42,730 bases of DNA from a virus, in the IMG/VR virus record IMGVR_UViG_3300018059_000006, positions 1 through 42,730 of that record; one strand, given 5' to 3'. The stretch's first letter is position 1; every line of letters begins with the position of its first letter. The notes under the pieces are model-generated. The model was not told the origin of the DNA, did not search any database, and worked only from the letters and a program-made list of their open reading frames with translations. The translations under genes were made by a program, and so were the position numbers. Below, one piece after another: positions 645 through 42,730 of the stretch.

Positions 645-1136
645 TTATTCCTTATTCCTTGCAAGCAATTGACCTGTCTTACCTAAAATTTTCGTATGTT
701 GCGCAACCAAATCTTCAAGTTCTTTAATTCTTTTAGATTTTTGAAAATCTTGTTGTTCAAGTTCTTTTATTCTTATGCTTTTTTGTGTATCTTGTGCCTC
801 AAGTTCTCTAATTCTCGTATCTCTTTCAGTAATCATTCTTTGAAGATATTCAAACTTATTTATAAATGCCGAATTCATTTCTTGGACAGTTGTTAGTTGA
901 TTGTGTATATCAATAAGTTCGGCTCGTTTTGCATCACGTTCTTTATCGCGTTCTTCTTCAACTCGCCTATTTCTGTCAATCAAACCTTCAACTTGTTTTT
1001 CAAGTTTTTCAAGTATGTCAACATTTGTTTTTTTTGTTTCAGCTTTGTTCTTGTCTCTATTTAGCCACGAAGTCAACATAGACCCAAGATAACCAAACAG
1101 TGCGCCAATAATGCCAGTTAAAATATTGTCATTCAT
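645..1136 (-). CDS. Membrane-anchored coiled-coil protein
   Basis: No family is recognised. Residues about 5-25 are a hydrophobic segment (an N-terminal anchor), and residues 30-155 are charged and strongly coiled-coil. The C-terminal half contains about three tandem 13-residue units of the pattern RI(R/K)ELExQDxQKS, visible as imperfect repeats of about 39 bp in the DNA. It starts 8 bp inside the end of the HD-GYP gene, and its stop abuts the terL start, so the three genes should be co-translated. The anchor plus coiled coil recalls spanin-like or holin-associated proteins, but its place next to terL is not diagnostic. Confidence 0.75.
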   Translation of the reverse strand: MNDNILTGIIGALFGYLGSMLTSWLNRDKNKAETKKTNVDILEKLEKQVEGLIDRNRRVEEERDKERDAKRAELIDIHNQLTTVQEMNSAFINKFEYLQRMITERDTRIRELEAQDTQKSIRIKELEQQDFQKSKRIKELEDLVAQHTKILGKTGQLLARNKE

Positions 1137-1749
1137 TTATTATTGTCCGTTTGAACGCAGCAAATATTTCAGGATCAAACTTTAGTCCATTTTCCTTTTC
1201 CATTTCCTTTAACGCCTCGGTAATGGTGCGTGCCTTACGATCTGATCGATCACTGGTAATTGCATCCCAACTATCAACAGGAGAAAGCATTCGCGCCCAC
1301 AAAGAAATATCAGTTCCTCGTAGCCCACGCGGGTATCCTTTACCATTCCACCATTCATGGTGTTCCCATATCGCTATGCCAATCCTATTATCAAATCTCA
1401 TGTCCTTTATAAGATTGTAGCCATTGATGGGATGTCCCCGCATCGTGTCCATATTAGATACAGAAAATTTACGCCTATGTAAAATATTATCTGGTATGCC
1501 TATCTTTCCAATATCGTGAATTTGTGCCAAAAACTTTAATAGCACAATATCCGCAGTCAAAATATTCATTTCTAACGCAAGATTTTCCATTAATACTTTA
1601 GAACGTTTTCCATGCCCACGTTCCCATGTATCAACAAAACATAATGCATTATCAGCAAACTCTACAACCGCACTAAGCCGAAGCATATCATCTGCATTCA
1701 TTGATGTTTTATAGGCATCATCAGACTTTAGAATAAGTCTTTTTTTCAT
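1129..1749 (-). CDS. HD-GYP domain cyclic-dinucleotide phosphodiesterase-like protein
   Basis: HD-GYP enzymes are metal-dependent phosphodiesterases that open c-di-GMP or 3'3'-cGAMP. In this 206 aa protein the expected metal ligands are visible: His46, His78-Asp79 (HDIGK), His106, His130-His131 and Asp159. The signature HHEWWNGKGYP is at 130-140, with Asn where most family members have Asp. Length matches one isolated HD-GYP domain; there is no receiver or sensor part. It is coupled to the coiled-coil gene by an 8 bp overlap. A role in clearing a defence signal (CBASS) or lowering host c-di-GMP is inferred, not shown. No clear ribosome site precedes the ATG at 1749. Confidence 0.9.
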   Translation of the reverse strand: MKKRLILKSDDAYKTSMNADDMLRLSAVVEFADNALCFVDTWERGHGKRSKVLMENLALEMNILTADIVLLKFLAQIHDIGKIGIPDNILHRRKFSVSNMDTMRGHPINGYNLIKDMRFDNRIGIAIWEHHEWWNGKGYPRGLRGTDISLWARMLSPVDSWDAITSDRSDRKARTITEALKEMEKENGLKFDPEIFAAFKRTIINE

Positions 1750-1792: not shown

Positions 1793-1975
1793 TTATCCCC
1801 TTGCAGAACTTGCTAACCCTGTTCCAATGCTATATGCGGCGAATGCAGCAACAACCAACTGCAAACTATCGAACAGATTTACACCTCCTGAAAAATAGCC
1901 GGCACCTACCGCAACAAGTGATCCGACCAACGCCCAAAATTTCCTTGACGTAAGCAATTCTTTTAACTTCTGCAT
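1793..1975 (-). CDS. Small two-helix membrane protein, holin-like
   Basis: A 60 aa protein with two hydrophobic stretches (about residues 12-30 and 35-55) separated by a short Gly/Asn turn. Its size and topology suit a small holin, which would open the membrane for the endolysin encoded at 35995-37695. That function is inferred. I chose the ATG at 1975 rather than the in-frame ATG at 1990 because GGAGG sits just upstream of the former and nothing comparable precedes the latter. The endolysin lies far away in the head module, so this is not a classic lysis cassette. Confidence 0.7.
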   Translation of the reverse strand: MQKLKELLTSRKFWALVGSLVAVGAGYFSGGVNLFDSLQLVVAAFAAYSIGTGLASSARG

Positions 1976-1998
1976 AGAACCTCCATTCATTGGTAATG

Positions 1999-2024
1999 CC
2001 TAAAGGTGTACATTATCCTTTAGG
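1999..2024. promoter_or_regulatory. Inverted repeat upstream of holin-like gene
   Basis: CCTAAAGG and CCTTTAGG form an 8 bp stem with a 10-base loop in the leader of the holin-like gene. No T-run follows on either strand, so it is more likely an operator or leader hairpin than an intrinsic terminator. Confidence 0.4.
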
Positions 2025-2053
2025 AAGAAATACAACGATAGAATTATACCCGA

Positions 2054-2062
2054 TACTCAGTA
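2054..2062 (+). repeat. TACTCAGTA site 2 (intergenic)
   Basis: One of the few intergenic exact copies, about 80 bp upstream of the holin-like start, in context GATACTCAGTAGA. Confidence 0.9.
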
Positions 2063-2106
2063 GAGGGGCAACTGTTTTGCCGGGGAATAGAAAATGAGAA
2101 AATTTA

Positions 2107-9263: not shown

Positions 9264-9830
9264 CTATGCCGTCAACAAAAGTTTTTGCACACTGCTCGCA
9301 AGCTTTTTCACACGATCCGCGGTTACGGTTTGTCCACCACTGGCATTGGCAAGGCGCTTGAGAAATGTTTGTCCGTCGCCGCCGTCGGGTCCAGCGAAAA
9401 TAGTATCAATTTTGTTTTTGAACGTTCTGGCAATTTTCAATGCCTCATCTTCGCTATCCGGTTCGCCGTCACTAATTACAATAAATCTCATGCCACTAGA
9501 CAAGTCACCCATTTTTGCAAACTTCAATGCTTTGGCTAAATCAGTTGTGCTGCCGAAGTCAAACGGAATTCCGTTCGGGCAGAATTGCACGTTATCAGAG
9601 AAACTCAGTAGAGCTATCTTGCCCGGCAAACTCGCCTGCAGTTGTTTGAGTTCATCGCAAGCCACGTCATAACGGGTTTGACCATCACGAGAATCATTTG
9701 CGTGCATCGATCCAGAGGTATCAACTAGAATAATGCAGTCTGCGTTGACGAAACTCTCTGCAATGCTTTGGCCTGATTGTTTGGCTACTGCTCCCAACGA
9801 GCCTTGTATGATTGCCGTGTTGTCACTCAT
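9264..9830 (-). CDS. von Willebrand factor A domain protein
   Basis: A 188 aa single vWA domain. The MIDAS metal site is visible as DTSGS at 37-41, a later Thr in GSTTDLAKAL, and Asp in ISDGEPD. vWA domains bind partner proteins through a Mg2+-bridged acidic residue. ATG 9830 is chosen over an upstream frame because GAGGAG lies 5 bases before it, and it overlaps the previous gene by 4 bp. It is translated together with the J-domain gene, suggesting a joint chaperone or assembly function. Confidence 0.85.
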   Translation of the reverse strand: MSDNTAIIQGSLGAVAKQSGQSIAESFVNADCIILVDTSGSMHANDSRDGQTRYDVACDELKQLQASLPGKIALLSFSDNVQFCPNGIPFDFGSTTDLAKALKFAKMGDLSSGMRFIVISDGEPDSEDEALKIARTFKNKIDTIFAGPDGGDGQTFLKRLANASGGQTVTADRVKKLASSVQKLLLTA

Positions 9831-10021
9831 GTTTTCTCCTCTTGTTTTTTTTGCCATTCTGAATTCAGCAAATACAAACATCCAACTTTTGAATTGTGCC
9901 ATTGATAGAACCAGGCAACGGCATACTGAGTACTCATCTTTCTTGCATCAATTTCACTAGCTACAAACATCCGTAATTTATGGTCGGGCAATTCACGGGG
10001 ATTGATAATGATGGTCATCAT
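9827..10021 (-). CDS. Small protein linking J-domain and vWA genes
   Basis: A 64 aa protein with no recognised family, containing a central basic/aromatic stretch (QYAVAWFYQWHN). Its ATG overlaps the J-domain stop and its stop overlaps the vWA start, each as ATGA, so all three products should be made in fixed ratio. GAGG lies 7 bases before ATG 10021. Confidence 0.6.
   Translation of the reverse strand: MMTIIINPRELPDHKLRMFVASEIDARKMSTQYAVAWFYQWHNSKVGCLYLLNSEWQKKQEEKT
9924..9932 (-). repeat. TACTCAGTA site 7
   Basis: Exact copy in the small linking gene, read as Thr-Gln-Tyr. Confidence 0.9.
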
Positions 10022-10851
10022 GCCCACACCTCTAAAAATTCTTTCGCGCCCTTCGGCCATGACACAACCAAAACGCGCCCGCTATTATCTCGAATATCCT
10101 CCCACGCGAAAATTTTTGATATATTGAAAATGCCCAGAGATTCAATGCCTTCACACATAATAAGTCCACATCGCAATGGAGACCGGTATCCATCTGCAAG
10201 GCGATCAACTGCGAAATTTTTGCTTGAATTACCATGCAGGCTCATTTCAAACGCAAGCCCGGCGTCATAGCGTTCACGGGTTTTACTAAGAACTTCATAA
10301 GCGTGTTGAATTGCCATGAATTGCTCCTGTGCATTTGCCTCCTTGCATCGATCAGGATGCCACTGCATGACCATGCGGCGATAACCGGTTTTTACTTCTT
10401 CATCAGTTGCATCCCGGCCAATAGCCAATACTGAGTACAACGTAGGCTGTTTATCTGGATTCATTGGCGCATCAAACCAAGCACACAAAACAGTTTCAGG
10501 AAAAATTACATTCCATCCATCTTTGTACCAACCATATGCAGTGCGTTCATCGCCGCCACGATCTTTGGTTGTGCCAATGTAACGAACATCAATAATTTGC
10601 TGTTTGACAACTGGCTTTATGTTGGCAATATTTGGCACTAATGGCAGTTCACCAAAATACTTATGACACAGGTTTTGAATTTTTGCCGCGTTATTTGGTG
10701 TTACGCACCAACCAATACATTTATTATTTTTATAAATTGGCTTGCGTTGTGATACCTGTATAGAAGATTTCAAGTCTGCAATCATTGCCGCATCATATGG
10801 AAAAGATAAAACCAGTTCATTGCCGTCTTGAATAATTTTACATTTGGTCAT
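10018..10851 (-). CDS. J-domain (DnaJ-like) protein with HARP-like N-domain
   Basis: A 277 aa protein. Residues 137-198 form a J domain with the essential HPD at 165-167, which stimulates DnaK/Hsp70. Residues 8-68 (LSFPYDAAMIADLK ... CIGWCVTPNN) resemble the HARP/SMARCAL1-type beta module found in DNA-acting proteins. The C-terminal 75 residues are unassigned. It probably recruits host DnaK to a phage client. AAAGGA precedes the ATG. It begins a translationally coupled trio with the 64 aa and vWA proteins. Confidence 0.85.
   Translation of the reverse strand: MTKCKIIQDGNELVLSFPYDAAMIADLKSSIQVSQRKPIYKNNKCIGWCVTPNNAAKIQNLCHKYFGELPLVPNIANIKPVVKQQIIDVRYIGTTKDRGGDERTAYGWYKDGWNVIFPETVLCAWFDAPMNPDKQPTLYSVLAIGRDATDEEVKTGYRRMVMQWHPDRCKEANAQEQFMAIQHAYEVLSKTRERYDAGLAFEMSLHGNSSKNFAVDRLADGYRSPLRCGLIMCEGIESLGIFNISKIFAWEDIRDNSGRVLVVSWPKGAKEFLEVWA
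10429..10437 (-). repeat. TACTCAGTA site 8
   Basis: Exact copy at the start of the J domain coding region, read as Tyr-Ser-Val, a different frame from most copies. Confidence 0.9.
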
Positions 10852-18038: not shown

Positions 18039-18093
18039 GGGTTTGAGACCACCAATATTTGGTTGTAATGTTTCTGCAATGAAAGGAGTTGTC

Positions 18094-19050
18094 ATGTTAT
18101 TTTCCAAAGCGGTTGAGGGATTTATTTTAGACGCCAAAGCCGGCAGGTACAGCCCGGCGCATGTGCCAACGATGCAAGGTTATTTGAAATATATTTGTAA
18201 ATTTCTGGGTGATCCTGAGTTGGAATCTATTACCTCGGATGATTTCATTCGATATATGCATCACCTCCATACTGAGTACCGACCTAAGCGCTTTAATGGT
18301 GATGATTCCCCTCTGGCTTTGTCCTCAATAGACAACCACTGGAAAACAATACGCGGATTTTACAATTGGGCTGTGGAAGTTTTGGAATTAAAAGAACGTC
18401 CAGATTTAAAAATGAAACGTCCTAAATACGAATCGCCCCAAGTTACACCTTTTTCAAAAGAGGAAATTATCAAGCTTATTGAAGCCTGTCAATATACGCA
18501 AGTGAAAAAACAAACGGGAAAAACATATAGAATTAGACGCCCTAATTCTGAGCGTGATCGGGCAATTATTATGACACTTTTGGATACCGGCATGAGGTTG
18601 GGAGAATTAACACGCGTACGTCTTGGAGATTTACGGCTCGAATCTGGGGAGATTCGTATTCGTCCCCATCGCGATGGACGTAAGTCAAAGGTAAGAACCG
18701 TGTTTTTAGGCACCCGTACACGCCAGGCAATATGGCGCTATATGGCTAAAAATCAAATTTCTGTTGATGAAAATGACCTGACATTACCATTATTCGTTTT
18801 GCAGGGTGCATCTATACGATTGTTGATTGGTAGAATTGGAAAAAATGCGGGTGTTTCTAATTCACATCCGCACAGGTTTAGGCATACATTTGCAATTACC
18901 TATCTTCGCAATGGGGGTGATGTTTTTACGTTGCAAAAAATGCTCGGACACTCTACACTGGACATGGTTAAAAGGTACTTAGATATTATTCAGTCAGATG
19001 TATCAAATGCTCATCGCCACGCATCGCCGGTAGACAATTGGCGTCTATAA
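18094..19050 (+). CDS. int: Tyrosine recombinase (phage integrase)
   Basis: A 318 aa site-specific recombinase for integration and excision. An N-terminal SAM-like DNA-binding domain covers about residues 5-95, and the catalytic domain follows. Catalytic residues: Arg in GMRLGEL (about 168), His-x-x-Arg in HPHRFRHTF (about 260-263), His in LGHST (about 286) and Tyr in KRYLDI (about 295). ATG 18094 has AAAGGAG 6 bases upstream. It runs against nearly all other genes and is divergent from the small regulators. The attachment site was not identified. Confidence 0.93.
   Translation: MLFSKAVEGFILDAKAGRYSPAHVPTMQGYLKYICKFLGDPELESITSDDFIRYMHHLHTEYRPKRFNGDDSPLALSSIDNHWKTIRGFYNWAVEVLELKERPDLKMKRPKYESPQVTPFSKEEIIKLIEACQYTQVKKQTGKTYRIRRPNSERDRAIIMTLLDTGMRLGELTRVRLGDLRLESGEIRIRPHRDGRKSKVRTVFLGTRTRQAIWRYMAKNQISVDENDLTLPLFVLQGASIRLLIGRIGKNAGVSNSHPHRFRHTFAITYLRNGGDVFTLQKMLGHSTLDMVKRYLDIIQSDVSNAHRHASPVDNWRL
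18270..18278 (-). repeat. TACTCAGTA site 13
   Basis: Exact copy in the plus-strand integrase gene, read as Thr-Glu-Tyr. The identity extends upstream to the 16-mer found at 14976-14991. Confidence 0.9.
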
Positions 19051-31668: not shown

Positions 31669-31892
31669 TGTCCTTTTATCCTATTACACCTAGGTTTTGT
31701 TTAGGCGGCCGCCATCCGCCAGGGTTGCCGTTTTCTGAGCCGACGGCTGGCTAAGTATTTCTGGTAATAAAAAAGCCACATCTTTCAACAAGATTTCTCT
31801 TGTTAAAAGACATGGCTCTTTTGAGTCCTATCTTGAGGGGTGTGCCCTACCCGGAAGGTATGACACTATGACTAATCTTGTCCTTTATCCTA
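31669..31892 (-). other. Structured leader block flanked by direct repeats
   Basis: This gap before the scaffold gene has no gene. It is bounded by TGTCCTTTTATCCTA (31669-31683) and TGTCCTTTATCCTA (31879-31892). Inside are a strong terminator (31769-31822), a GC-rich stem (GGCGGCCGCC region near 31703) and AGCCGACGGCT near 31738. The left repeat supplies the scaffold ribosome site and the right one covers the stop of the upstream gene. It may be a leader controlling head gene expression or an inserted element. Confidence 0.55.
31769..31822 (-). terminator. Intrinsic terminator before head genes
   Basis: A long stem with core AACAAGA/TCTTGTT and outer GCCA/TGGC, loop TTTC, followed on the minus strand by TTTTTT. 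On plus it also ends in CTTTT, so it may work both ways. It isolates the head operon from the upstream small-gene cluster. Confidence 0.8.
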
Positions 31893-32189: not shown

Positions 32190-32365
32190 TTTGTCTTATC
32201 CTTATTGCTACTCAGTATTGTTCGTAAACGCTTTGATATTTCCTTTTGACAAAATTTACATTTTTGCACATGTTCCCGCAATTGCCGACGGTAATAACCA
32301 ATCTTTATGGGCGTGCGTGCGAGAGCCTTTTTTATTAATAATTGCTGTGCTTTGCCACAAATCAT
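32186..32365 (-). CDS. 59 aa zinc-binding basic protein
   Basis: It has REHVQKCKFCQKE, a likely His-Cys-Cys metal site, in a basic context. It starts one base inside the end of the phosphoesterase gene (TAATG) and its stop overlaps the next ATG, so the trio of tiny genes is coupled. A TACTCAGTA site is in the coding sequence. Confidence 0.55.
   Translation of the reverse strand: MICGKAQQLLIKKALARTPIKIGYYRRQLREHVQKCKFCQKEISKRLRTILSSNKDKTK
32209..32217 (+). repeat. TACTCAGTA site 20
   Basis: Exact copy in the 59 aa gene, read as Leu-Ser-Ser region. Confidence 0.9.
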
Positions 32366-33234
32366 TAATCACTCTCCATTACTGAAAACTTAGGAATAGC
32401 AATTGTTCCATCCGCCTTAATTTCGTGGTACACGCCGCCAATTTTATTTTTATTCACAGGCGCTACCATCCATGAGTAAGCCGTTTTCATTTGCCACGAT
32501 GGAAGAATGATTCCATGCATAGTCTTAAAATTCATTTGTTCCCGCCACACATAACTGCTATATGTTGGCTCGTGTACGTGTCCAGTGTATAAAATATCTG
32601 GCACACGATGGTTATCTTTCATGGATTCCAAACAAATATTTCTTAACCAATTTCTCATGGTATTACCCTCGTTTGCGCCAGCCCCACGCCCCGGCCCGTG
32701 ATGCACAAACCACGATAAAACACCATTTGTTTCAAGCGGCAAAAAATCCCATACATAAAATTGCTCATTCATAACTGCATTCATTTCACGGCCTATATAA
32801 TTTTCAAACTCATTTACATGCGTCTGCGTGCCTCGCGTGTAATAAATTTCATCGCCTGCTTGCCAATCAATGCGCTTTTGAAACTCATTCATTAATTCAA
32901 TGTGGATGTCTGCCTGTTCAAGCGAGTCGGTTGTGCAAACATCGCCGCTGTTATGGTGATCTCCGTCTATCGCGTCACCATTAAGAACAAGTATTACTTT
33001 TTTCCTTTGTCTTACTTGCTTGACTTCCTCTGCAAAATTTTCAAACTGTTGACGGATTCTAATTTGTCCGCTTCTAGGTATGTGTGATGTTTTTTTTCCG
33101 TGCCATTCACGATTTAGAAATAAAGCAAAATTGCTGCCTGAATGTGTGTCACTTATTACAACTTGTAAAATATCCTTTGATTTTTCTTGATGTATTCCAA
33201 ATATTTCTTCTAATAATGTGGGTGATGTAATCAG
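32365..33234 (-). CDS. Calcineurin-like metallophosphoesterase
   Basis: A 289 aa enzyme if started at CTG 33234, which has AAAGGAG 7 bases upstream. The conserved motifs need that long form: DTH at 29-31, GDAIDGD near 86-92, RGTQTH at 134-139, HH at 178-179 and GHVHE at 218-222. These bind two metals in phosphoesterases that cut phosphodiesters or phosphoproteins. The in-frame ATG at 32892 would lose the first catalytic Asp. No ATG, GTG or TTG occurs between the upstream stop and 33234. DNA-repair or nucleotide-clearing function is possible. Confidence 0.82.
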   Translation of the reverse strand: MITSPTLLEEIFGIHQEKSKDILQVVISDTHSGSNFALFLNREWHGKKTSHIPRSGQIRIRQQFENFAEEVKQVRQRKKVILVLNGDAIDGDHHNSGDVCTTDSLEQADIHIELMNEFQKRIDWQAGDEIYYTRGTQTHVNEFENYIGREMNAVMNEQFYVWDFLPLETNGVLSWFVHHGPGRGAGANEGNTMRNWLRNICLESMKDNHRVPDILYTGHVHEPTYSSYVWREQMNFKTMHGIILPSWQMKTAYSWMVAPVNKNKIGGVYHEIKADGTIAIPKFSVMESD

Positions 33235-33271: not shown

Positions 33272-34378
33272 TTACACTACTATTGTTTCTCTAACCGATT
33301 GTTTTTGCAATCCAGTCTGTTTTATGAAACTTCGCATGGCAGACTGCCATTGTTTAACTTTAGCGAGTTCTTTTGGTGCTTCCAATTTTGCCGCCTTCAA
33401 TGCTTCGGCTTGTCGTTTCCACTCCCTTATCTTTCTCTCAATGCCCCTCTGGTACTGAGTAGCCTCGTACACAGATATATCCTGCCCATTGAATTTAACA
33501 GTTTCCTTTTTGAAATCCTTTAATTCTTCTTTGCTGTATGCGTTTTCTGATATGCCCTCGAAGAAGGGATAGAACGAATGTCTACAATTTACTCCGGCTA
33601 ATCCTGTTACTGTTCCATAGCCCGTACTTTCCACAAACGGGGAATATTTCTTACTTGTGCCACTTCTTGAAAATACCTTACCCTGCCAAACTGCATGAGA
33701 AGGACGCGCTCCGATATGAGCGGATGTTTGTACAAGGTCGCTTTGCATTTCTGACGCTCTTTGTAATTGAAGTTTGCCAACTGTCTGACCCACACCAGTT
33801 AAGATGGCACGACGAACACTTACATCAAGTTTTTGACTTCCAGAAAGATAGTCAACTGTGTTTATTCCTTGCGCGGCTATATCTTTTATAGCCTTTTTTA
33901 TTGCACTGTTATAATCTTTTGAACCATTTGTTATTTCAAGATAGGCAATATCTGTGGCACGAATAAAAGCATTTTGTCCGCCTATTGCAGTGGTAAGTGT
34001 AAGATTGCGTAAAAGGCTGTTTGTTTTTCGCAATCCCTCTTCCAACACATTTAGCATGGCCGGATTTAAGTTTAATGGAATGGGCGTCTTGCCTGCCTGT
34101 ATATAAATCGAGTCGTCAAACTTCAAGCCCTTCACACCGTATTTTTTGAAAATCTCGCGTAGAGTTCTTTCCGATTTTCCTGTAAGTTGTGCAAGGCGTT
34201 TTAGAATATCATCATATAGCAACCCTGATTCTGATAAACGTTGAACTTGCCACGAGGCAGACGAAAAAGACATCTTCGCTAGTCTGCGAGCAATATCATT
34301 GATTATTCCCTGCTCGAATTCTAAATAAAGCTCTGACGCCTCATTCGATAAAATGTCAAAGTCGTCACTTGTTAGCAT
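33272..34378 (-). CDS. Minor capsid protein (Phage_min_cap2-like)
   Basis: A 368 aa protein. The C-terminal part (VNCRHSFYPFFEG, then YEATQYQRGIERKIREWKRQ) is characteristic of phage minor capsid protein 2, encoded next to the portal and injected or capsid-bound. ATG 34378 has AGGA upstream and overlaps the end of the GIY-YIG gene by 14 bp. Basic and helical as expected. Confidence 0.82.
   Translation of the reverse strand: MLTSDDFDILSNEASELYLEFEQGIINDIARRLAKMSFSSASWQVQRLSESGLLYDDILKRLAQLTGKSERTLREIFKKYGVKGLKFDDSIYIQAGKTPIPLNLNPAMLNVLEEGLRKTNSLLRNLTLTTAIGGQNAFIRATDIAYLEITNGSKDYNSAIKKAIKDIAAQGINTVDYLSGSQKLDVSVRRAILTGVGQTVGKLQLQRASEMQSDLVQTSAHIGARPSHAVWQGKVFSRSGTSKKYSPFVESTGYGTVTGLAGVNCRHSFYPFFEGISENAYSKEELKDFKKETVKFNGQDISVYEATQYQRGIERKIREWKRQAEALKAAKLEAPKELAKVKQWQSAMRSFIKQTGLQKQSVRETIVV
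33453..33461 (-). repeat. TACTCAGTA site 21
   Basis: Exact copy in the minor capsid gene, read as Thr-Gln-Tyr. Confidence 0.9.
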
Positions 34379-35192
34379 TGCGCTTTTCCTGCTGAATTCT
34401 TTTTTGAGCCACACTCATTTTTTGGCGCGCCTCTTCGGAGTGTTTATATCCGAGGGTACGTAAATTTCCAATAAGTGAATTGCTTATTTTCTTTTTATGT
34501 TCTTCGCTAAGCTTTTTCCCTTTATGCACATCAGACAGTTTCTTCTTGGCTTCTTCACTCATTGCAATGCCTTTATTCCAAGCAACCTGCAAACCTTTCT
34601 TTCCTTTATTCCATCCGACAGAAAGACCTATATTCCAAGCAGGCTTACCCGTTTTAATTCCTTCATTCCAAGATTTTCTACCCTTTTGAGATGCGCTAAT
34701 TTTTGCGCGCGTTTCTTCTGAGGCCGAATACAAACCTTTCTTTCCTTTATTCCATGCGGGCGTTCCTTTTTTTGAATCACTAATTTGTTTGCGAGTAGTG
34801 TCAGAGTGTTGTCTCCCATACATTGCATTATTTTTTCCACCCCTACTATCTCTCATCTTTTTACGAGATTCGTCCGTATGCTTTATCCCTAAAATTGATC
34901 CAGCCGTAGGCGATATGTTATAGGCGGGTTGCAAAGTATTGATATAATGTTGTTCACGAAATATCAAAGCAAAGAAAAAACAGGTTTCAATAATGTTAAA
35001 TTCAAAATGATTCGCACCATATTTATTCCATGCACGTTGTAGATATATAGAATGATGCTTGTTATTGTTTAGGTCGCGTTTATGTTCATTCCACCGCTTT
35101 TGGATATTAATAGATGACCCAATATACCTATGTCCATTAATGGTATTTACAATCTCATATATCCCACTGACTTTTCGTGCTAAAATATTCAT
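34365..35192 (-). CDS. GIY-YIG homing endonuclease with NUMOD3 repeats
   Basis: A 275 aa free-standing homing nuclease. SGIYEIVN ... RYIGSS is the GIY-YIG core (about residues 9-27), with Arg and Glu further on. A long C-terminal series of WNKGxxG and EEAKKKLSDxHKGKKLS units are NUMOD3-type DNA-binding repeats. ATG 35192 has GGAGG 6 bases upstream. It has been inserted between head genes (35285 and 34378), a usual habit of mobile phage nucleases. Confidence 0.88.
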   Translation of the reverse strand: MNILARKVSGIYEIVNTINGHRYIGSSINIQKRWNEHKRDLNNNKHHSIYLQRAWNKYGANHFEFNIIETCFFFALIFREQHYINTLQPAYNISPTAGSILGIKHTDESRKKMRDSRGGKNNAMYGRQHSDTTRKQISDSKKGTPAWNKGKKGLYSASEETRAKISASQKGRKSWNEGIKTGKPAWNIGLSVGWNKGKKGLQVAWNKGIAMSEEAKKKLSDVHKGKKLSEEHKKKISNSLIGNLRTLGYKHSEEARQKMSVAQKRIQQEKRNANK

Positions 35193-35284
35193 ATCAAGCC
35201 TCCAATCAGGTTTGGTCATGTACCCGGACGCTATAACGTCGCGGGTACAATTTTGAAAGTTAACCATATTATACTTCAACAAAG

Positions 35285-35994: not shown

Positions 35995-37695
35995 TTACAC
36001 CTTTGGAACAAATTCAACGGTTGTGCCATCTGTGCGAATAAGCGTAGCAGACACAAACTCATTTGCTGGTGGGGATATTGTTTTTACATAGATAGTGCCT
36101 TTGTAGACCATTGGCAACCATCCACCAGACGGAAGTTGCACAAATGTCACGCCCCAATCCGAAGGTTTCAAAAGATTGTAATTTGTAACCGTTGTCAGAC
36201 TATCAAATTTATAGCCCGCAAATACGGGTACTCCGCTTGTGTTGTACATGGATGCTGTTGGACGTTCCCCTATGGTTTTTGTAACTTCATACATAAAATC
36301 TCCTATGGGCGGAGGTGGTAGGCTTTCACCTTTCATCTTCACACCTATAATTTGTGCAACAGGGCGCATCTTGTACGGGTATCCCGCAATTGATTCCTCG
36401 CCCCACGATTTATTTAATAATATGGCTACCCCGCTTTCCATCGCAGCCAATGTTGTGGACCCGCCCCCATCGCACATAACCGCAAAATCACACCCCAAAT
36501 TAAGCATAATTTTTGCCGTTTCTTTGAATGACGCACCAACAGATTCTAGGTAATCTTGGCCGTCAATAGTGACAAAAAAGAATTTCTTTTGATCTTTGGT
36601 GTATCCAAATGCAGAACGTGCCCGCCAATCATCGCCTTTGTCTATGTAGGGAATTGCCCCATCTTTAACAATAACATTTGGGTATGAAAATGCCATATGC
36701 AAAATAGCCGGGCGAGTAAGAGTAAAATTATTTTCTTTGCTAATATAAAGCGTTTGTTCCATACCTGGTATGCCATAGGGCTGTCCATTGCTAACTGCAT
36801 AGCCTGCAATGTCATTGCCAATGAATCCATCACAGTTCATACCAAAATTCAGGCTATATTTCTTGGTAAGATGCGGCACGTAATTATTGCCTAATGGCCG
36901 GGGACTTATAAATAATTCAGTCTTGTCTGAATCAAACTCTAAAACGTGATAAGGTGTCCACCCTGAAACGGGCAAATGTGTTTCATATTTGCGATAAATA
37001 GCCCCGTCATAATATTTCCTCTCGAATAAAAGCGTGTCACCAAATGGTGTAGGAGGAACATTGGTTAAATCAAATCTCTTAATAAACTCTGCCTCATCAC
37101 CATTGAAATAATTCAAATCTACTGAACCTTCTGTTCCATAAATTGTGCCACTTCCCTTATCTGTCCATTGCCAAAATGTCCACTTAGTCCAAGGCAAAGG
37201 AATTTTCGGAGCGATAGTGTCATAAGCAGCAAGCCACAAATCAAACTGCTTGAAATAATCATGCAAAGATGTGGAGATGTGGTCTTTCCAATACCAATAT
37301 CCTGAATAAATAATAATTTCCTTGTTAGGAATTAATTCTTTTATCCGTTCAAGAAATATCTTTAAATTTTCTCCATTGCCATAAGCACCATTGTATTCAT
37401 CCTCAAAATCCGCAAACAATGGCAAATCTCCATAATCCCCCTGCAAAATGTTAAACCATTTATTTGCCTGTGCTACCGGCTCTGCTCGTGAATCATAAAA
37501 GTGATATGCACCCCAATACAATTCCGCCGCTTTTGCATTGAAACGATTGAGATAAAAGTCTCTATCAATCCATAAGTTTTGACTTGATTTTATGATGGTG
37601 AATTTCGCCCCCGCCGTTTTCATTTTCACAAAATCAATATGTCTTGTAGTTTCAGAATCATCTTCCCAAAATGAAACATCAGTTCCTATAATCAT
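35995..37695 (-). CDS. Endolysin: GH25 muramidase fused to phosphodiester glycosidase
   Basis: A 566 aa enzyme. Residues 1-205 are a GH25 lysozyme (GTDVSFW; catalytic Asp96 and Glu98 in FADFED) that cuts peptidoglycan glycan chains. Residues about 250-450 match the NAGPA/DUF2233 phosphodiester glycosidase fold (MCDGGGSTTLA). A C-terminal beta module of about 85 aa may bind the wall. It has no signal peptide, so a holin or injection would be needed. It is translated from within the portal stop (TAATG) and sits in the head module, unlike a lysis cassette. Confidence 0.87.
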   Translation of the reverse strand: MIIGTDVSFWEDDSETTRHIDFVKMKTAGAKFTIIKSSQNLWIDRDFYLNRFNAKAAELYWGAYHFYDSRAEPVAQANKWFNILQGDYGDLPLFADFEDEYNGAYGNGENLKIFLERIKELIPNKEIIIYSGYWYWKDHISTSLHDYFKQFDLWLAAYDTIAPKIPLPWTKWTFWQWTDKGSGTIYGTEGSVDLNYFNGDEAEFIKRFDLTNVPPTPFGDTLLFERKYYDGAIYRKYETHLPVSGWTPYHVLEFDSDKTELFISPRPLGNNYVPHLTKKYSLNFGMNCDGFIGNDIAGYAVSNGQPYGIPGMEQTLYISKENNFTLTRPAILHMAFSYPNVIVKDGAIPYIDKGDDWRARSAFGYTKDQKKFFFVTIDGQDYLESVGASFKETAKIMLNLGCDFAVMCDGGGSTTLAAMESGVAILLNKSWGEESIAGYPYKMRPVAQIIGVKMKGESLPPPPIGDFMYEVTKTIGERPTASMYNTSGVPVFAGYKFDSLTTVTNYNLLKPSDWGVTFVQLPSGGWLPMVYKGTIYVKTISPPANEFVSATLIRTDGTTVEFVPKV

Positions 37696-41700: not shown

Positions 41701-42730
41701 TCATACTCCACGTTGCCGCCATACGAGCGAGAGGGCGTAGCGACAAGAATCTATTGAATGGTTATCCCGATCTGGGTATTCTGAAATATATTCATCTTCT
41801 GAGTTCTTTTCATATTCATAATTATGAAACTCATCAGCCGTATAGGGACATCGTTTGGGATCAATAATAATAGATGTTAAATTCTCAAGCCAACGAAGCG
41901 AATACTTAAGACTCCCGGCGGGTTTTTCACTACCGCGCGCGGTTGCGCCAAATTGTTTAAAATCACCAATTGACTTAGGTTCTGCGGAATCACAAATGAG
42001 TAAATCACCATCGTTGTAACCATATTCTTTTATGGCTTTGTACAAATCTTCATTGCTAGTTTTCCATTTTCTAACTTCACCAAAGATATACAAAACTCTT
42101 TGAGCCGCATTGTAATAACATTTAGAATAATGAGCAGGGTCAACGGCAAAGCCCCAATCCATACCATTGTGAGTAGGTTCAAATTCTTTTATTTCTTCAT
42201 CTGTTATTGCTCTCAATATTGCATTCTCAAAAACGGTTCCGCCCGTTCCTGTAACTTCAGCCATATATTCATTATTAAACGCCTTAAGATTTACATTCTT
42301 TAAATGTTCGGCTTCGGCAATAAATACATCACCAAGCCAATCATGAGGAACATTTAGATAATTGCTTGTGTGTTGATACTGAGTGGTTTTGGGTACTAAG
42401 CAATACTTGTTTATCCAATTTTGCGCCGAACGTGGAGGATTCCAGGATTTGATAAACCACATCCTATCACCGCCACGTAAAGATTGTTCAATTTTCCTGA
42501 TATGTTCTGCGGACTTAGCTTGGTCTGCTTCTTCAACCCATAAAATTCCAAGGTATCCAAATGTTGGCTTTAAAGACTTAATTTTGCCAACATCATCAAG
42601 ACCACGAAAATAGATTTTCTGTCCAGTGGGAAGATACTCAATTTCCATTGGAGACATAATGCACTTGAACTCATCCGATAAACCTAACTCACTGATTGCC
42701 CACTGCAACTGTGAATAAACACTATCACGA
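41701..42730 (-). CDS. terL: Terminase large subunit, C-terminal part (joins 1-644)
   Basis: Gives terL residues about 174-516 (the first ones duplicated by the 123-base repeat). Walker B is GILWVEEAD at about 235-243. The RuvC-like nuclease acids are Asp365 (MDWGFAVDP), Asp421 (LLICDSAEPKS) and Asp501 (HSIDSCRYAL). This order fits the Terminase_3/PBSX family, which usually makes headful cuts, in agreement with a permuted genome. The stop overlaps the start of a very short unlisted frame before the SH3b gene. Confidence 0.93.
   Translation of the reverse strand, partial: RDSVYSQLQWAISELGLSDEFKCIMSPMEIEYLPTGQKIYFRGLDDVGKIKSLKPTFGYLGILWVEEADQAKSAEHIRKIEQSLRGGDRMWFIKSWNPPRSAQNWINKYCLVPKTTQYQHTSNYLNVPHDWLGDVFIAEAEHLKNVNLKAFNNEYMAEVTGTGGTVFENAILRAITDEEIKEFEPTHNGMDWGFAVDPAHYSKCYYNAAQRVLYIFGEVRKWKTSNEDLYKAIKEYGYNDGDLLICDSAEPKSIGDFKQFGATARGSEKPAGSLKYSLRWLENLTSIIIDPKRCPYTADEFHNYEYEKNSEDEYISEYPDRDNHSIDSCRYALSLVWRQRGV
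42608..42730. repeat. Terminal direct repeat, right copy
   Basis: Identical to 1-123; removing one copy leaves 42,607 bases and an unbroken terL. Confidence 0.97.

Follow-up and report, generated by a model that had tools for sequence, protein, structure and literature searches.

The PmGH/PA4781/RpfG family consists of HD-GYP phosphodiesterases of c-di-GMP, and the structure of PmGH serves here as the yardstick for the active site, with residue roles taken from the same work (PMC4159591). Mutation of one of its metal ligands, E185A, lowers the activity of PmGH without abolishing it, and a subfamily with Tyr or Phe at this position is predicted to bind two metals (PMC4159591). Among other HD-GYP proteins, V-cGAP1-3 degrade 3',3'-cGAMP (PMC9813507), and DvhD, whose structure has been solved, is a c-di-GMP receptor with control over a membrane system (PMC13090378). 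HD-GYP proteins have also been predicted in jumbo phages and interpreted as counter-nucleotide enzymes (Iyer et al. 2021, PMC7824862). A link between c-di-GMP and phage infection is described for N4, which requires c-di-GMP to infect Escherichia coli through a dependent receptor, so that a phosphodiesterase protects the cells (PMC8669472).

The window analyzed here is the complete 42,730-nucleotide stretch of the IMG/VR record IMGVR_UViG_3300018059_000006. Its first and last 123 nucleotides are identical (direct repeat, 1-123 and 42608-42730, plus strand), and the gene of the large terminase (PHROG match, minus strand) spans the junction, with the 5' part at 1-644, the 3' part at 41701-42708 and an uninterrupted 516-aa ORF on the circularized sequence. 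Given the terminal repeat and the junction-spanning terminase, the window covers the entire phage genome, which closes into a circle and has 42,607 unique bases; its HD-GYP gene is therefore phage DNA, as the sequence-only reading had it. PHROG matches in the window include terminase, portal, minor head, major head, tape measure, endolysin, integrase and RecT-like proteins; this set, with a tyrosine integrase at 18043-19050, suggests that the 42.6-kb phage is probably temperate. Several other genes deserve mention in their own right. The GH25 endolysin (35995-37695, minus strand) is fused to a phosphodiester glycosidase (NAGPA) domain; a GIY-YIG-like homing endonuclease, judged by the appearance of its sequence, adjoins the minor head gene (34365-35282, minus strand); and a von Willebrand A-domain protein and a DnaJ-domain protein are encoded by neighboring genes (9264-9902 and 10018-10851, minus strand). 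A 175-aa ORF (32365-32892, minus strand) is possibly a truncated gene; its resemblance to a 309-aa phosphoesterase-like protein of a relative (L072, 3102-4031) is confined to the C-terminal portion of the latter.

The gene at 1129-1749 (minus strand, an exact ORF) encodes a stand-alone 206-aa protein that matches the Pfam families HD_5 (8.1e-31) and HD (1.6e-12), both far beyond the cut-offs. Its PDB sequence matches are exclusively HD-GYP-type proteins, namely V-cGAP3 (the best, with an E-value of 2e-28), PmGH (3e-27), PA4781 (1.5e-15), DvhD and Bd1817. The AlphaFold model, for which 35 relatives were used, has a mean pLDDT of 92 and matches the solved structures of PmGH and PA4781 with TM scores of 0.80-0.82. 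The HD-GYP domain accounts for nearly the whole protein, which has no sensor domain. Thus, both the HD_5/HD profiles and the fold identify the protein as a new member of the known HD-GYP family, in agreement with the original annotation. A terminase scan detected one close relative of this phage, L038 (91% in the terminase), which carries an orthologue of the HD-GYP gene in the same slot (L038:1886-2479, 69% identical), likewise followed by a membrane/coiled-coil gene. Comparison of the two orthologues yields a pN/pS of 0.27 (bootstrap 0.20-0.33), given instead of dN/dS, with the synonymous sites saturated. This value, obtained with a gene from a related phage, indicates that the HD-GYP gene is real and is maintained under purifying selection.

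Seven of the eight metal ligands of PmGH are kept in the phage protein, namely H46, H78, D79, H106, H130, H131 and D159 (H189, H221, D222, H250, H276, H277 and D305 in PmGH, respectively), together with the catalytic D40 and K82 (D183 and K225), so that the seven common ligands and the catalytic Asp and Lys are all in place. The structural D162 (D308), the equivalent of I294 and Tyr139 of the GYP motif (Tyr285) are conserved as well, and the guanine-contacting R314 and K317 correspond to R168 and R171. The HD dyad (H78 and D79; codons at 1513-1518, minus strand) is accompanied by the signature HHEWWNGKGYP (residues 130-140; 1330-1362, minus strand), an Asn variant of HHExxDGxGYP that was correctly recognized from the sequence. 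Given that Asn occupies the position of N135 in 9 of 94 relatives and that the L038 orthologue has Asp, Asn135 reads as a minor variant with no sign of decay. The accompanying claim that all expected metal ligands are present was slightly too strong: the eighth, E185, which bridges the second metal pair in PmGH, is replaced by Trp42 in the window protein and in its orthologue. Because of this replacement, a two-metal site is expected for the phage protein, outside the three-metal subfamily typified by PmGH, whose E/D-T-G motif is absent from both phage proteins (Trp42-Glu43). More unusual than Asn135 is the residue between R168 and R171, which is Asp170 in both phages and Tyr in 93 of the 94 relatives. 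This substitution may have altered the substrate preference, and the pocket perhaps does not favor c-di-GMP. The proposed hydrolysis of cyclic dinucleotides is likely and is supported by sequence, structure and selection; the replacement of the near-invariant Tyr by Asp170 makes the substrate uncertain.

On the coding strand, the order of features is a promoter-like element, a small hydrophobic protein, the HD-GYP gene, a membrane/coiled-coil protein and, as the next gene of the module, the terminase. The membrane-anchored coiled-coil protein (645-1136, minus strand), whose first 8 nt are also the last 8 nt of the HD-GYP gene, has an orthologue in the same order in L038 (2472-2954). We propose that it is a partner of the HD-GYP protein and, from its architecture only, that it might be holin- or spanin-like; it carries no lysis annotation, and the GH25 endolysin is encoded elsewhere (35995-37695). 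The small hydrophobic, holin-sized protein (1793-1990, minus strand) follows the promoter-like element, precedes the HD-GYP gene and is absent from this place in L038. The HD-GYP neighbors in the window are membrane proteins, among which there is no significant holin match.

The promoter-like element itself (1999-2071, minus strand) consists of TTGCCC-17-TATAAT followed by an 8-bp inverted repeat, CCTAAAGG-N10-CCTTTAGG. Although non-coding, it shows about 90% conservation relative to L038, in which about 30 nt separate it from the HD-GYP start downstream, and L038 is the only place where it was found again in IMG/VR. A related sequence is present at the corresponding position in L074, a relative that has no HD-GYP gene in this slot, so that the element belongs to the module and not to the HD-GYP gene, which was probably inserted under its control. 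We infer that the element is a late promoter. A fluoride riboswitch match upstream, which scored 17.8 bits where the gathering score is 34 (E-value of 0.3), was dismissed as a chance match. The motif TCCTAAAGG occurs in three exact copies, where 0.17 would be expected; those at 2017 (within the element, minus strand) and at 31888 (plus strand) fall in stretches conserved in L038 and could serve a phage regulator as operators. In two relatives that lack HD-GYP here, the gene preceding the terminase resembles a C39 peptidase by eye, with no Pfam match (L074:6766-7341 and L075:1427-1993), which suggests that this slot holds variable enzymes.

The same type of gene pair is found in a third phage of this group, L046 (terminase 57%, portal 48%, capsid 44%), at another site. 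There, an HD-GYP gene whose product is 38.5% identical to that of the window lies between the minor head and scaffold genes, and the gene directly downstream is homologous to the coiled-coil protein of the window (hhalign probability of 91, E-value of 1e-6), whereas two other coiled-coil neighbors compared in the same way gave probabilities below 1. Given this homology, the HD-GYP gene and the membrane/coiled-coil gene seem to travel together as a pair. A search for further loci with the coiled-coil partner found only L038 again, and a candidate receiver domain in L046 was rejected as having no Pfam support. On unrelated phage contigs, HD-GYP genes adjoin small membrane genes in L045 and L065, a membrane gene and a GH24 lysozyme in L018, an endolysin of the Amidase_2 type in L044, and a holin in L049. 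In an exploratory comparison, small membrane proteins are encoded by 9 of the 21 genes directly adjoining HD-GYP against 35 of 320 others (p ~4e-4), for 21 contigs with structural phage genes, some of them related, and with a pattern spotted before testing. The p value is below 0.01 at thresholds of 1.2-1.6 and equals 0.07 at 1.8, and most of the 21 contigs show no such adjacency. The lysis-side enrichment is thus a lead and not a result.

The earlier statement that HD-GYP genes are uncommon in phages is supported for named phages. With four HD-GYP queries, no clearly phage-borne HD-GYP was found among 50,697 phage records; the search returned only unverified fecal scaffolds and one record with bacterial-looking neighbors. 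Five of the scaffolds (MT83xxxx), which encode larger multidomain HD-GYP proteins (with GGDEF or receiver-like parts) or have helicase and metal-transport neighbors, were opened, looked bacterial and were not counted as phage. The remaining record, Microcystis phage MaAM05 (L005, MW495066.1), has secE, nusG, rplK and trxB beside the HD-GYP gene, looks at least partly bacterial and was likewise not counted. Among named viral structures, Gp79 of Bacillus phage G alone is close over the whole HD-GYP domain. In contrast, HD-GYP genes are present on many IMG/VR contigs, and of 35 such contigs tested, at least 15 carry a terminase detected by either of two profiles. On two viral contigs, the domain is part of very large proteins of 1454-1711 aa (L028:8465-13600 and L023:8537-12901). 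A genome contig scan revealed no close bacterial relatives of the pair formed by the window and L038 proteins; among cellular proteins, the nearest are for the most part multidomain ones from Chloroflexota, with 35-39% identity. In a tree of 73 domains, this pair forms an isolated long branch, and phage HD-GYPs do not group together but fall among cellular domains (14 label changes for 15 rows). A phage-specific clade of single origin thus cannot be claimed, and the scatter implies repeated acquisition of HD-GYP by phages.

The only cellular relatives of the terminase come from a 4.5-kb contig of a Chloroflexi MAG (59%) and from a Lachnoclostridium MAG (46%). A Chloroflexota host is therefore likely but weakly supported, the assignment being based on the one small Chloroflexi contig; in a survey of 199 genomes of the probable host class for other prophages, a portal match was found in the starting MAG only. 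Among 100 genomes of this class, GGDEF is present in 61 and HD-GYP homologues in 47, whereas a SMODS cyclase scores above the cut-off in a single genome and in none of the sequences of the MAG with the related terminase, by a model that leaves some CBASS cyclases uncovered. Given these counts for GGDEF and SMODS, c-di-GMP would be a more available target than a CBASS messenger if the host belongs to this class.

Taken together, these observations are best compatible, with a probability that we put at roughly 45%, with a late-acting cyclic-dinucleotide phosphodiesterase that most likely acts on host c-di-GMP and is encoded in a late/membrane module with a coiled-coil partner. Under this scenario, a catalytically competent two-metal HD-GYP phosphodiesterase, reduced to its catalytic domain, would have become an accessory gene of the module, accompanied by the membrane-anchored coiled-coil partner, and would linearize host c-di-GMP late in infection. 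The loss of c-di-GMP would turn off dependent surface polysaccharide, adhesins or pili, so that the progeny could escape retention by biofilm or by receptors on dying cells, with less re-adsorption; possibly, superinfection would be blocked as well. Of this scenario, the family, the active-site residues, the fold, the purifying selection and the conserved slot and pairing are observed, whereas the activity, its substrate, its timing and its benefit are deduced.

The sequence-only reading had raised, besides altered host biofilm or lysogeny decisions, the disarming of CBASS, i.e., destruction by HD-GYP of its cyclic di- or oligonucleotide messenger (e.g., 3',3'-cGAMP), or of that of a related nucleotide-signaling defense. 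The degradation of 3',3'-cGAMP by V-cGAP1-3, one of which is the best PDB match, and the interpretation of the jumbo-phage proteins (PMC9813507, PMC7824862) lend some credit to this proposal, and the lineage-specific Asp170 could signal a changed substrate. Nevertheless, it found no specific support and appears unlikely: there is no defense or counter-defense gene near HD-GYP, SMODS is at about 1% in the probable host class against 61% for GGDEF (and missing from the MAG with the related terminase, under the same incomplete cyclase model), and the HD-GYP gene adjoins late genes instead of lying within an early cluster. A location next to late/membrane genes speaks for manipulation of the host late in infection rather than for CBASS evasion. 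Slightly less probable is lysogenic conversion, whereby expression in the prophage from the gene's own promoter would lower host c-di-GMP and change motility, biofilm or superinfection. The presence of the integrase in a probably temperate phage and the conserved promoter-like element just upstream, whose inverted repeat might act as an operator, are consistent with this possibility, but the counterpart in L074, where HD-GYP is lacking, assigns the element to the module, and the downstream genes continue into the terminase with no obvious terminator. An improbable variant is a receptor or lysis-timing switch, in which the domain would bind c-di-GMP, with no need to cut it, and control the membrane-anchored partner, as could be suggested by the conserved pairing and by the precedent of DvhD; however, both phage proteins keep the catalytic HD dyad, the metal-binding histidines and the Lys, unlike the DvhD chain, which lacks the HD dyad in the PDB-match alignment. 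Finally, the single catalytic domain, the unusual Trp42, Asn135 and Asp170 and the mostly multidomain Chloroflexota relatives might bring to mind an inactive piece of an HD-GYP regulator taken from the host not long ago, but this is hardly credible given the 69% identical orthologue in the same slot, the pN/pS of 0.27, the retention of all core residues and the long branch shared with L038 only, which implies that the capture was not recent.

Returning to late c-di-GMP hydrolysis, its broader implications depend on how general the arrangement is. A canonical HD-GYP is almost never seen in the genomes of named phages, whereas uncultivated contigs of several unrelated groups carry one, and its placement on those contigs is apparently not random. 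It is conceivable, if doubtful, that phages repeatedly recruited HD-GYP into late/lysis-side modules, often with a membrane-anchored coiled-coil gene, to collapse c-di-GMP signaling (or, given Asp170, signaling by a related nucleotide) at release; this would amount to a strategy, widespread among phages and different from CBASS evasion, of shutting down a second messenger so that virions escape or superinfection is excluded. If the protein is active late, phages would directly control the bacterial biofilm/motility switch at release, which would provide a testable account of biofilm exit or prevented re-adsorption, and not every phage cyclic-dinucleotide hydrolase should be taken as a CBASS antagonist. 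In the literature searched, we found no report of phage HD-GYP genes grouped with late/lysis-side genes and with a membrane/coiled-coil protein as partner.

Among the known systems, Acb1 (an anti-CBASS nuclease) and Acb2 (a sponge) would be similar to the phage protein in action if its substrate were a CBASS messenger; their folds are unrelated to HD-GYP, and the neighborhood of the phage gene, in contrast to these proteins, yields no evidence of counter-defense. The PmGH/PA4781/RpfG-family phosphodiesterases share with the phage protein the fold (TM ~0.8), the HD dyad, the metal histidines, the catalytic Asp and Lys, the GYP loop and the guanine-contacting R/R, whereas the phage-borne protein differs in having no sensor domain, Trp at the E185 position and Asp replacing Tyr between the equivalents of R314 and K317. 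Among the V-cGAPs, the 3',3'-cGAMP-specific HD-GYPs of Vibrio, V-cGAP3 is the closest in PDB sequence comparison (2e-28), but the match is split in two stretches and V-cGAP3 has the canonical RPYR motif. The jumbo-phage HD-GYPs are likewise phage-encoded and proposed to act on cyclic nucleotides; they have been read as counter-defense, whereas the protein described here is encoded by a 42.6-kb, probably temperate phage in a late/membrane-module setting.
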